NCBI GenBank assembly: GCA_016839055.1
Contig: JAEKNX010000006.1
Span: 1-64,000 of the forward strand
Direction: 5' to 3'
DNA from: Spirochaetales bacterium
GTDB taxonomy: Bacteria; Spirochaetota; Spirochaetia; UBA9216
Length of the DNA: 64,000 bases
This document shows positions 13,008 through 17,028 of the stretch, one piece after another (within the stretch, counting starts at the first letter, position 1; each line of letters starts with the position of its first letter). The notes under the pieces were generated by a model, which was not told where the DNA came from, searched no databases, and was given only the letters and a program-made list of their open reading frames with translations. A program made the position numbers and the translations under genes.

Positions 13008-13977
13008 TCACATCTGGCTGCTAAACGGCCCCGAGAACGGGGAAAAACTAATATTTCTCAAACAGATAAGGAAGAGACTCTCTGAGCGTTTCGGCGAAGA
13101 ACCCGAAGAACATAGGTTTTATCCGTTCGAGAGCAGTATTTCCGATATCATATCGCTGATAAAGAACGGCTCGCTTTTTTCCATCTGGAAACTCATAATC
13201 ATCGGCCAGGCCGATCTTCTCAAGAAGGTGGATATCGATGAGATTAAAGCCTATATGCAAACGCCGTCGGATGATGCCGTGATTATCCTGACCTCAGATG
13301 AGACCTCACTCAAGAACGGATTGACAAAAATCGTGCCCAAAGAAAATACAAAAATATTCTGGGAAATGTTTGAGGGGCAAAAAAAAGACTGGCTTTCAGG
13401 CTTCTTCCGAAACAGGAAGATAGGGATTGAAGCCGGCGCAATCGAGCTTCTTCTCAACCTTATTGAAAACAATACCGCCGACATGAAAAATGAATGTGAT
13501 AAACTCGCCATTTTCTTCGGAGAAGGCGCTCTAATCAGCAAGGCCGACATCGAAACCTTTTTCTATCACGGAAAAGAAGAGAATGTCTTCTCTCTGTTTA
13601 ATCATATCGCGGCAGCTGATCTTCCCGGCTCGGTTGATGTTCTTCAGAAAATTATGCTCGGGGGTGAAAACAACACAGTCCAGCTTCTCGGCGGACTTTT
13701 GTGGCAGCTTAGAAATCTTCAGGGAATTGCAGACGAACTCGGCAGGGGGGAATCATTTCAATCTGCCTGTTACAAGTCTAATATCCGAAGCAAAAAAGCC
13801 CAGGCGGTCTATTCCGAGGCGCTGAAACATTATAATGAAAAAAACATCAGGGATATTATAAACCTCACCGCTGACTATGATATCAAGCTCAGGACGACAC
13901 GTCAGGATCAGAGAGAACTCACTGCACAGCTATACCTTTATCTATTCATTATTCGGAAGGGCTCTCTGATAATCTGA
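13000..13977 (+). CDS. holA: DNA polymerase III delta subunit (clamp-loader) HolA
   Basis: 325 aa, typical for delta. The sequence shows the HolA pattern: an N-terminal nucleotide-binding-like fold lacking a P-loop (IWLLNGPENGEKLIFLKQI), the LIIIGQADLLKK strand, a middle lid domain (IELLLNLIENNTADMKNECDKLA) and a C-terminal collar (QLLGGLLWQLRNLQGIADEL). Delta opens the beta sliding clamp within the clamp loader. It is the last gene of the run and its end overlaps the convergent EEP-fold gene by 29 bases. Confidence 0.85.
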   Translation: MTDHIWLLNGPENGEKLIFLKQIRKRLSERFGEEPEEHRFYPFESSISDIISLIKNGSLFSIWKLIIIGQADLLKKVDIDEIKAYMQTPSDDAVIILTSDETSLKNGLTKIVPKENTKIFWEMFEGQKKDWLSGFFRNRKIGIEAGAIELLLNLIENNTADMKNECDKLAIFFGEGALISKADIETFFYHGKEENVFSLFNHIAAADLPGSVDVLQKIMLGGENNTVQLLGGLLWQLRNLQGIADELGRGESFQSACYKSNIRSKKAQAVYSEALKHYNEKNIRDIINLTADYDIKLRTTRQDQRELTAQLYLYLFIIRKGSLII

Positions 13978-14971
13978 CTACGGCCCTGAGGCCGAAACGG
14001 TTGGATGGAAATACTCCATAGACCGGCTCATCAAACACTATTTCAACGGCAACCGGAATCAGCTCATTGCCTCTGATAAGAATATAATCAGATCTGTATC
14101 CGGCCTTCGGTCTGGGATCATTCATCTTGTCGATATTCGTGTTCACATAGGGCGCCCAGGTATAACCCTTTCCTCTTCCGTCCTTTTCCCAGACATCAAT
14201 AAATCCGGCAGATTTCAAAATATTCATCTCATCGCTGTCGGGAAGGGCGTTCAGACTACCACAGAGAATGACCGGGGCCCCTCCTGCCGTATTGTTAATG
14301 AAGGATAGAGTCTCCTCAGCCTGTTTCTTTCGCAGCTGCGCCCCGCCTACCGCGTCTCTGATAGATTCAGAATAAACACCGGGCTCTATATCTTCATTTA
14401 TATAGGCGTCGAGAAGCCGTTGAAGACTCTCCCTGTCTGAGAAGACAGACTCGGCCCACTCGACTGAAAAAACATAGATGTCCGTTCCCGCCTGGGTTAT
14501 CTTACTGCAGATTATCTGTGATCCGTTTCTGGAAAAAAGGGTAAATGTGCGGTTTGATATTCCGCCGTTAAGAAGCTTTCTTCCGAAAGGCTCCTGCGCA
14601 AGGCTGTCTTTGGCAAGAATAGCATCTCCAACCTTCAAGTTCAGGGGCAGGCTAACAGGCCCTATCCTGAAACCGCTTTTTGATATCCAGACATCAGATG
14701 TCATTCCAAGCTCTCCGGCCGCTGTTTCGGCGAAGGCGGGCGCCGGATTTATTCCGTTCAGCACAATAATATCAGCATCGAGTTTCTTAAGTCCGGCTGC
14801 CAGTACTTCATGCCTAAACATTCTGACTTCTTCGTTTTCGAACTCCTGGCAGCTTAAAAACCCCTTCCCGCTGATGCCCGGCCAGGCGTTGAGAGTTACA
14901 ATAGTAAGGTCCTGTGCGTACAATGTCACTGAAATTAACAAGGTAGAAATAATTAGCAATATTCTTTTCAT
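13949..14971 (-). CDS. Exported endonuclease/exonuclease/phosphatase-fold protein, degenerate active site
   Basis: 340 aa with a signal peptide (MKRILLIISTLLISVTLYAQ). The EEP fold is recognisable from VTLNAWPG (25-32), DADIIVLN (65-72), PVILCGSLNALPDS (233-246) and YRSDYIL (292-298). Catalytic positions are changed: the Glu of the usual LQE is Gly73, the Asp of GDFN is Ser239, and the terminal SDH triad reads SNRFG at 323-327 with no His. Asn28 and Asp295 remain. The protein is probably exported and may have lost nuclease/phosphatase activity. It lies just downstream of an intrinsic terminator that ends 12 bases before its ATG, with no good ribosome site, so expression may depend on readthrough. 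Confidence 0.75.
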   Translation of the reverse strand: MKRILLIISTLLISVTLYAQDLTIVTLNAWPGISGKGFLSCQEFENEEVRMFRHEVLAAGLKKLDADIIVLNGINPAPAFAETAAGELGMTSDVWISKSGFRIGPVSLPLNLKVGDAILAKDSLAQEPFGRKLLNGGISNRTFTLFSRNGSQIICSKITQAGTDIYVFSVEWAESVFSDRESLQRLLDAYINEDIEPGVYSESIRDAVGGAQLRKKQAEETLSFINNTAGGAPVILCGSLNALPDSDEMNILKSAGFIDVWEKDGRGKGYTWAPYVNTNIDKMNDPRPKAGYRSDYILIRGNELIPVAVEIVFDEPVYGVFPSNRFGLRAVVRLSESPSE

Positions 14972-14982
14972 AATTTATCCAT

Positions 14983-15010
14983 AAAAAAAGCCGGAGTGAT
15001 TACCGGCTTT
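14983..15010 (-). terminator. Intrinsic terminator of the untranslated RNA
   Basis: On the minus strand, aaagccgg, loop taatcact, ccggcttt, followed by an unbroken T run. It ends 12 bases before the ATG of the EEP-fold gene, an unusual position for a plain terminator and typical of an attenuator. Confidence 0.8.
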
Positions 15011-15193
15011 AGAAAATTCACAGGCGGATATTTACAACCGACTTCTGAATTCTCACTGTTTAATAAGGGGTTAACCCCTTTACATGTCTTACAGTCAGTG
15101 GCCGGCTCAGCACCGGCAGTTCTTTTTAGGTGGAGTCAATCTGCTCCTCCTTCACTTCAGTTTAGAAGCCCTATGGGCTTGTTTACCTCATCT
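14983..15193 (-). ncRNA. Putative structured untranslated RNA or regulatory leader, unknown family
   Basis: The 269-base gap between uvrC and the EEP-fold gene is non-coding but shows a near-consensus promoter at one end and an intrinsic terminator at the other, defining a transcript of about 210 nt on the minus strand. It contains several strong local hairpins: aagccc/gggctt, ggag/ctcc, gccgg/ccggc and the palindrome aaggggttaacccctt. The 5' and 3' ends do not obviously pair, so 6S RNA is unlikely; tmRNA, RNase P and SRP signatures were not found. It is either a free small RNA or a leader attenuating the next gene. The agccgg sequence occurs both in the internal hairpin and in the terminator 5' arm, allowing alternative pairing. 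Confidence 0.55.
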
Positions 15194-15199
15194 ACCTTA

Positions 15200-15228
15200 A
15201 ATTTAGTACAATTAATACGGTTTGTCAA
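15200..15228 (-). promoter_or_regulatory. Strong sigma-70 promoter of the untranslated RNA
   Basis: Minus strand TTGACA (15228 to 15223), 17-base spacer, TAAATT (15205 to 15200). Perfect -35 and spacing, good -10. It lies only 13 bases after the uvrC stop, so the RNA is probably transcribed on its own. Confidence 0.65.
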
Positions 15229-15240
15229 ATTTTAAATATA

Positions 15241-17028
15241 TTATTTTAAAGTCCTTATTTTAGTTACCAGAGCCTCGGCAGCCTCAGGTGAAATTCCCGC
15301 GGCGGTGCGCAACTCTTCAGGAGTACAGCTTCCTATGGTCTCGAGTGATCCATAGGTTTCAAGGAGCTTCCTGCTTCGAGACGGCCCTATCCCGGCAATG
15401 CCCTCAAGGAGGGAGAAACGGCTGTCTTTCTCCCTGAGCTTCTGATTGAGCCCGGTAGCAAACCGGTGGGTCTCATCACGCACATACTGGAGAACCCTGA
15501 GAGCGGGATCTCCGGCAGGGAGGTTTACTACCCCGGGCCGGCCGTGTAGATAAATCTCTTCATTCTGCTTGGCAAGTCCCGCAACGGGGATGTCGTCCAG
15601 CCCGAGGGCGGAGAGTACTCCCTTCGCGGCGCTCACCTGTCCGGCTCCGCCGTCAATAAGGATTAGATCCGGCATCTGCTGGTCCTCATTAAGCAGTCTT
15701 GTGTAACGCCTCGACACGGCCTCCCGGACGGCCGCGAAGTCGTCAATTCTGCCGTTAAGGGTTTTTATATGAAAATGCCGGTAATTATTACGGTCTGGAA
15801 CGCCGTTCCTGAACGAGACAAGGGAGGCGGTCGGATACTTGCCCGAAAGCTGTGAAATGTCGAAACCCTCAATCCTCTTGGGCAGAGACGCGAGGCCGAG
15901 AACCTCCTTAAGCTTTATGATACCCTCTTCATTTCCGACCTTGCGCTTCCTCTTGATAATATCCTGATAGGCATTTTCTGCAGCCATTCTAAGAACCGAC
16001 TTGTTCTGCCCTTTTTCAGGAAAGAAAAATTCTATTTCAGCCTTCTTCTCTTTTATAAAAAAACTTTTAAGAAGAACTGTATCAAGCGGAACAGGCAGGT
16101 AGATCTCAGAGGGTAAACCTTCGTGATCTGAATAATATTGAACAATAAACTGCTCGAGGGCTTCTTCATCGGTAGAAAGGAATTTAGTCCGGTAGAGATC
16201 ACGGCCTGTCAGCCGGCCGCCCCTCATCTGAAAGACGGCAAAGGAGTACATGTCCTCATATGACGAGAAAGCTATATAATCACGCGTCTTCTCGTTGTAA
16301 TCGATAATCCGCTGATTAAACTCATTTATGAGCCCTTCGGCAGCTATCATCGAATCACGGAATCCGGCCGCATGCTCAAACTCAAGAGAAGCCGAGGCGT
16401 CCTGCATCTTCCCTTTGAGCCAGGTAAGCAGTCCGTCATTATCGCCGGAGAGCAGCTCTTCAACCTGCTTTATTATTTTACCGTATTCTTCGGCACATAT
16501 CTTCCCGGCACATGGCGCCGAACACCGGCCGATATGATAATACAGACAGGGAGCAGCCCTCTTTTTGAGGGGTCCGCGGCATTTTCGAAGCGGAAACATC
16601 TTCTCTATCGTTTCCATGTAGATATTAAGGAGTCCGGCGGATGGAAAGGGTCCGAAATATTTTGAACCGTCCTGAATTATCCTCCTCGTCATAAACACAC
16701 GGGGGAATTCTTCCTTACTTATCCTGACAACGGGATAAGTCTTGCCGTCTTTCAACCTGATGTTATAGCGGGGATTCCATTTTTTTATGAGGATATTCTC
16801 AAGCAGAAGGGCTTCATACTCGGACTCGGTTATGATTGTATCGATATCTTCAATTTTACTCACTAAGACCTGGGTTTTCGGATCCCTATTCTTCAGAAAG
16901 TACGAACTGACCCTCTTTCTAAGGTTAATTGCCTTTCCGACATAGATGATACTGCCGCCCTTGTCCTTCATAAGGTAGACTCCTGATGATTCTGGGAGCT
17001 GCGAAGCAGATATTTTGAGCTTATTCAT
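15241..17028 (-). CDS. uvrC: UvrABC system protein C
   Basis: 595 aa, full length. The N-terminal GIY-YIG nuclease (SGVYLMKDKGG, YVGKAINLRKRVSSYF) is followed by the UVR motif region (EELLSGDNDGLLTWLKGKM), the RNase H-like UvrC nuclease domain with FDISQLSGKYPTAS and LILIDGGAGQ, and C-terminal helix-hairpin-helix repeats (LEGIAGIGPSRSRKLLETYG). With UvrA and UvrB it makes the dual incisions of nucleotide excision repair. Cysteines in a CLYYHIGRCSAPC segment are also typical of the family. The gene is monocistronic by appearance: a divergent gene lies 61 bases upstream and an independent promoter starts right after its stop. Confidence 0.96.
   Translation of the reverse strand: MNKLKISASQLPESSGVYLMKDKGGSIIYVGKAINLRKRVSSYFLKNRDPKTQVLVSKIEDIDTIITESEYEALLLENILIKKWNPRYNIRLKDGKTYPVVRISKEEFPRVFMTRRIIQDGSKYFGPFPSAGLLNIYMETIEKMFPLRKCRGPLKKRAAPCLYYHIGRCSAPCAGKICAEEYGKIIKQVEELLSGDNDGLLTWLKGKMQDASASLEFEHAAGFRDSMIAAEGLINEFNQRIIDYNEKTRDYIAFSSYEDMYSFAVFQMRGGRLTGRDLYRTKFLSTDEEALEQFIVQYYSDHEGLPSEIYLPVPLDTVLLKSFFIKEKKAEIEFFFPEKGQNKSVLRMAAENAYQDIIKRKRKVGNEEGIIKLKEVLGLASLPKRIEGFDISQLSGKYPTASLVSFRNGVPDRNNYRHFHIKTLNGRIDDFAAVREAVSRRYTRLLNEDQQMPDLILIDGGAGQVSAAKGVLSALGLDDIPVAGLAKQNEEIYLHGRPGVVNLPAGDPALRVLQYVRDETHRFATGLNQKLREKDSRFSLLEGIAGIGPSRSRKLLETYGSLETIGSCTPEELRTAAGISPEAAEALVTKIRTLK

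Follow-up and report, generated by a model that had tools for sequence, protein, structure and literature searches.

The gap between uvrC (15241-17028, with Pfam UvrC domains) and a gene for an exported Exo_endo_phos (EEP) protein (13949-14971) in a Spirochaetales bacterium raises the question of what kind of RNA is made there and what it might do. Within the window, i.e., the whole stretch of 64,000 nucleotides that was analysed, an RNA gene lies in this gap on the minus strand, from 15228 to about 14984, with a predicted transcript of ~210 nt. An earlier note, made from the window sequence, had described it as an untranslated candidate for a new small RNA or riboswitch. The first half of that description has held, since the locus belongs to a conserved, structured RNA family without an Rfam match, whereas the riboswitch half has not, because the downstream genes vary.

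All features of the gene are on the minus strand. The sigma-70-type promoter recognized in the earlier note, TTGACA-17-TAAATT, was borne out at 15228-15200, with hexamers that recur in relatives, and transcription is expected to start near 15194. The 5' hairpin A (AAGCCCATAGGGCTT; 15166-15180), which is predicted by folding and is not universal among homologues, precedes the Shine-Dalgarno sequence AAGGAGGAG (15152-15144). The transcript had been said to have no coding potential, which proved wrong: directly downstream of this strong Shine-Dalgarno sequence is an in-frame mini-ORF of 10 codons, TTG ACT CCA CCT AAA AAG AAC TGC CGG TGC TGA (M-T-P-P-K-K-N-C-R-C-stop; 15139-15107), which is conserved class-wide. 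Its Pro-Pro codons, CCA CCT, occupy 15128-15133. Exactly 10 nt past Pro-Pro begins hairpin C (GCCGGU-GCUGA-GCCGGC; 15101-15117), the loop of which contains the mini-ORF stop codon. Farther downstream are hairpin D (AAGGGGUUAACCCCUU; 15065-15080), a variable element placed by fold and alignment, the 3' domain of conserved GUGAG and long hairpin E (15012-15056), placed by alignment, and the intrinsic terminator AAAGCCGG-UAAUCACU-CCGGCUUU-U tract (14983-15010), which had also been proposed before and was confirmed over 15010-14987. The stable hairpins noted earlier are real as well, as the 213-nt transcript folds at -65.7 kcal/mol (z = -3.0), and 1 of 200 shuffles was equally good. The window genome (G000, 5.0 Mb) carries one copy of the RNA, and the terminator sequence GCCGGTAATCANNCCGGC occurs in it a single time.

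Two checks suggested in the earlier note, an Rfam scan and a comparison with related genomes, were both informative. The Rfam scan of the window gave no match to the RNA at gathering score and below it only chance-level matches, and scans of 36 homologous loci (E<=1) gave no family convincingly covering the RNA; the family is absent from Rfam 15. A contig (L098), binned as spirochaete and carrying a member of the family, also contains a Flavo-1 RNA match at L098:256-336 (47.1 bits against a cut-off of 42), above the gathering score. A BLAST search recovered the RNA from four sister species and traces of it from other families, and covariance models extended it across the class. Model R1, built from eight sequences (alignment A2), matched in 45 of 297 class genomes (E<=0.01), and model R2, built from 27 sequences (alignment A4), matched in 72 of 395 (E<=1e-4), in both cases usually with one copy per genome. 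A few of the 72 are false, e.g., the second match of genome G004 (L138) and probably that of G005. By these models, the RNA is present in at least 16 families of class Spirochaetia. The phylum-wide scan gave no convincing member outside Spirochaetia; the weak R2 matches L078, L082, L083, and L089 outside the class were dismissed as lacking the features, as were L084-L088, L090, and L138. A DNA pattern, AGGAGG..NTGACNCCNCC..GCCGG, had 29 matches over 84,980 species, of which four are strongly model-supported, all titled Spirochaetota or Spirochaeta, and the others look like chance. The open-licence literature on spirochaete RNAs and Pro-Pro leaders yielded no account of such an RNA. Comparison of the loci gives good support to membership in a conserved, spirochaete-specific family.

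The order of elements in this family is promoter, Shine-Dalgarno sequence, start codon, zero to four codons, Pro-Pro, about 10 nt, and hairpin C, then a variable region with hairpin D, then GUGAG and hairpin E, and finally the terminator. Upstream of most members is a TTGACA/T, 17 nt, TANNNT promoter, and the leader before the Shine-Dalgarno sequence ranges from about 5 to 73 nt. By its predicted promoter and terminator, the RNA is an independent transcription unit. Across A4, reduced to its 26 distinct rows, the proportion of paired cells is 86%, compared with 31-51% when the partners are slid. Both positions vary in 22 of 32 pairs, and 0 of 500 shuffles reached the observed covariation; the fitting of A4 to the model works in favour of the structure, and the covariation figures are to be read with this caveat. 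The covarying stem of hairpin C is paired in 99.4% of cells and the terminator in 100%. From the same rows, RNAalifold recovered the Shine-Dalgarno hairpin, hairpin C, and the terminator, and not hairpins D or E, the alignment of which is loose across families. The 3' domain was aligned separately, and the information that remained was insufficient for a model of its own. In places, the sequence of hairpin C is fully varied with pairing kept, as in L017 (GCCAAU/AUUGGU), and its distance from Pro-Pro is 10 nt in 31 of the 43 curated members, 9 nt in nine, and 11 nt in two, the lone exception having an extended stem. The aligned homologues show hairpins C and E and the terminator to be conserved across the family. 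In the variable region, L128, L131, L132, L135, and L136 (families f26 and f6) have another conserved stretch in common, around GGCGCCUAU(A/C)GA, which takes the form GACGCCUAUAGA in L136.

A Shine-Dalgarno sequence, start codon, Pro-Pro, and stop are found in every long member, and the start, in-frame Pro-Pro, and stop are present in 43/43 curated members (25 genera), with peptides such as MTPPEKDRRC, MTPPKREGRR, MPPYVYGRLYRQQN, MTTPPKGKGR, MKSQPPKSVSRC, and MENPPERKAPGRAV. The distance from Shine-Dalgarno to Pro-Pro takes ten values between 8 and 20 nt, covering all three residues modulo 3; despite this variation, the start codon is in frame with Pro-Pro in 25/25 genera, and an out-of-frame ATG or GTG occurs in only three of them. 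The window sequence carries one T more here than the sisters do, so that ATG has become ATTG and the in-frame start is TTG. Third-position differences dominate in many close pairs (L013/L014 [0,0,2]; L031/L034 [0,0,3]), and other pairs differ elsewhere. There is some circularity in how the ORF was ascertained, since the sequences used to build the models contain Shine-Dalgarno and CCNCC; the reading frame is no part of the covariance models. Among the 24 loci outside the R2 building set (L114-L137), part of which come from genera already seen and which also include families f6 and f29 and several new genera, 23 have an in-frame Pro-Pro, with TTG starts in L127, L129, and L132. The single exception, L137 (G124), has a mini-ORF reading M-L-K-L-P-G-V-S-R-L, with Leu-Pro-Gly in place of Pro-Pro. 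Beyond Pro-Pro, the peptide is not conserved, its length varies from 6 to 33 aa, and one Arg codon is dictated by hairpin C. Translation of the mini-ORF is therefore well supported by comparison, through frame and codon patterns, and the same comparison shows selection acting on the reading frame and on Pro-Pro.

The choice of proline codons is restricted in a particular way. The first is CCA in 18 genera and CCG in seven, and never CCC or CCU. In neighbouring ORFs, CCC and CCU together make up ~60% of proline codons and CCA ~9%; with this local usage, CCR would be expected in about 10 of the 25 genera in which it is seen (P about 10^-10.5). In addition, where the second proline codon ends in C or U, the next base is never C. 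CCC/U-C is a slippery sequence that is selected against, and the use of CCA raises pausing (PMC8129111). The observed codon choice is what would be expected if CCC/U-C slippage is avoided and CCA serves to raise pausing.

Pro-Pro bond formation is a slow, EF-P-dependent step in translation, and the nearly ubiquitous Pro-Pro mini-ORF suggests an RNA on which ribosomes deliberately pause. The best explanation, to which we assign a probability of about 0.4, is a stand-alone structured RNA whose mini-ORF would pause the newly started ribosome and so gate how stable or active the 3' domain is; both the Pro-Pro pause and its output are inferred. A ribosome would initiate on the mini-ORF and then pause while forming the Pro-Pro bond. 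Once the second proline occupies the P site, hairpin C would start ~7 nt downstream of the codon in the A site; it would then lie at the mRNA entry and could make the pause stronger. A ribosome held up in this way could hold the Shine-Dalgarno sequence, hairpin C, or both, and its occupancy would set whether the 3' domain, comprising hairpin E and the terminator, is stable or acts on targets in trans. Such an RNA would report the state of translation (EF-P activity, prolyl-tRNA supply, or initiation) without a downstream gene. In E. coli, it is established that polyproline pauses alter termination and are relieved by EF-P (PMC5021804). The short forms L092-L094, L096, and L104-L106 (families f26, f30, f32, and f37) have no mini-ORF module and keep the promoter type, a small hairpin, a GUGAG-type hairpin E, and the terminator. 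Since the 3' domain persists alone in them, it may be the effector; that it has a candidate trans action on putative targets is a guess. The short forms, which may be a separate family with the same tail, also show that the mini-ORF can be dispensable, which counts against the pause. Further points against the pause are that a single Pro-Pro can pause weakly without a strengthening context and that L137 has Leu-Pro-Gly. The formulation in which an orphan leader RNA would sense the EF-P or prolyl-tRNA state through a Pro-Pro-paused ribosome after initiation, and would signal in trans via its 3' hairpin/terminator domain, is tentative and somewhat doubtful.

The same features could be read without a pause. 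If the RNA were a trans-acting sRNA, translation might only protect or mature it, and CCNCC might be kept for pairing with the Shine-Dalgarno sequence. An AGGNGG/CCNCCU hairpin does form in most members, and retention of the 3' domain in the short forms agrees with this reading; in several genera, however, this hairpin is missing or folds no more stably than shuffled sequence (parts of families f25, f26, f40, and f14 give z near 0), while Pro-Pro is still there. Pairing would also favour CCU and tolerate CCC as the first codon, which is not what the exclusive use of CCA and CCG reflects, and it would not explain a frame maintained through changes in spacing. Pairing with Shine-Dalgarno as the sole cause of CCNCC was rejected on codon choice and the weakness of the hairpin, and the trans-sRNA reading as a whole is rather unlikely. 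A short mRNA for a functional micropeptide of about 10 aa, with hairpins serving only mRNA stability and termination, would account for the ideal Shine-Dalgarno sequence, the in-frame start, and the signs of third-position variation. It is improbable nonetheless, because nothing in the peptide is conserved besides Pro-Pro and the Arg codon imposed by hairpin C, its length is so variable, hairpin C overlaps the end of the ORF at a fixed spacing, and hairpin E is conserved past the stop. A CsrA sponge was dropped, as few GGA motifs were seen by eye.

An effect in cis on the EEP gene, by attenuator or riboswitch action through terminator readthrough, is suggested by the window itself, where some 12-16 nt separate the end of the terminator from the EEP ATG and no promoter is visible between them. 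The earlier note had pointed to an arm shared by an internal hairpin and the terminator, and GCCGG is indeed common to hairpin C and the terminator; the alternative fold built on it is not a conserved feature, since the two stems diverge independently in L017, L026, L030, L037, L076, L097, and L103. No conserved pairing disrupting the terminator was found, the hairpin C/terminator alternative being the single one tested, nor was there constant linkage to a regulated downstream gene across lineages. Only the genus of the window and one additional genome (G007) have EEP as the neighbour; in other lineages, the RNA is followed by gyrB, by another gene, or often by a convergent gene, with varying strand. 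The sister genomes L013, L014, L015, and L017 carry a separate TATAAT box for EEP past the RNA terminator, and the TATAAT stretch of these promoters is missing from the window at 14971-14987, where a mere 16 nt lie between the end of the model match and the ATG. In this one genome, EEP may consequently depend on readthrough, which may be a local accident rather than the role of the family. As a general explanation, the cis reading was rejected on the varying neighbours and the sister -10 boxes, and it is very unlikely. The upstream neighbour is uvrC throughout the genus of the window and in part of families f2, f23, and f25, with different neighbours elsewhere; in L033, the RNA lies directly beside a tandem array of four tRNA genes that score identically (L033:1085-1444). 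A diverged housekeeping RNA such as 6S or tmRNA would share the single copy, the length of ~200 nt, and the own promoter and terminator, but the window genome has a separate 6S (G000:C33, 63 bits, over the cut-off) and a separate tmRNA (G000:C15, 166 bits). The RNA locus has no RF00013 (6S) match, no long imperfect hairpin with the central bubble of 6S, and no tRNA-like ends, tag ORF, or RF00023 match, its ends are unpaired, unlike those of 6S, and no Rfam family convincingly covers the homologous loci, so that this origin is extremely improbable.

The stand-alone RNA with a putative Pro-Pro pause resembles several known systems in part. In Salmonella, mgtL is a stalling leader ORF with proline codons. 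Other stalling leader ORFs or uORFs are mgtQ of Salmonella and uORFC-6-1 upstream of hflX (PMC8092293, PMC8632094). All three share with the spirochaete RNA a very short ORF that has a ribosome-binding site to itself and that overlaps RNA structure or is closely followed by it, and mgtL and mgtQ also share the proline codons; unlike them, the spirochaete unit ends in its own terminator and has no constant downstream gene. In the dual-function sRNAs SgrS/SgrT, RNAIII/hld, and SR1/SR1P, the small ORFs encode functional proteins. The spirochaete RNA is likewise a stand-alone transcript with a terminator and a small ORF, its own promoter and terminator being evident from sequence and translation being indicated by the comparative frame and codon patterns; in contrast to those sRNAs, conservation is confined to Pro-Pro, and the purpose of reading the frame may be a pause. 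The first codon CCA/CCG and the avoidance of CCC/U-C are shared with Pro-Pro/EF-P pause sites (PMC8129111), which are known from protein genes and engineered leaders, whereas here they would belong to a stand-alone RNA family.

The finding adds a class-wide RNA family to a phylum with poorly known small RNAs and points to selection on Pro-Pro and codon choice in a transcript without a conserved protein or a fixed regulated neighbour. The pause hypothesis is directly testable in cultivated spirochaetes carrying the RNA. If the pause is true, ribosome stalling would be the input of a trans-acting RNA and not of a downstream gene.
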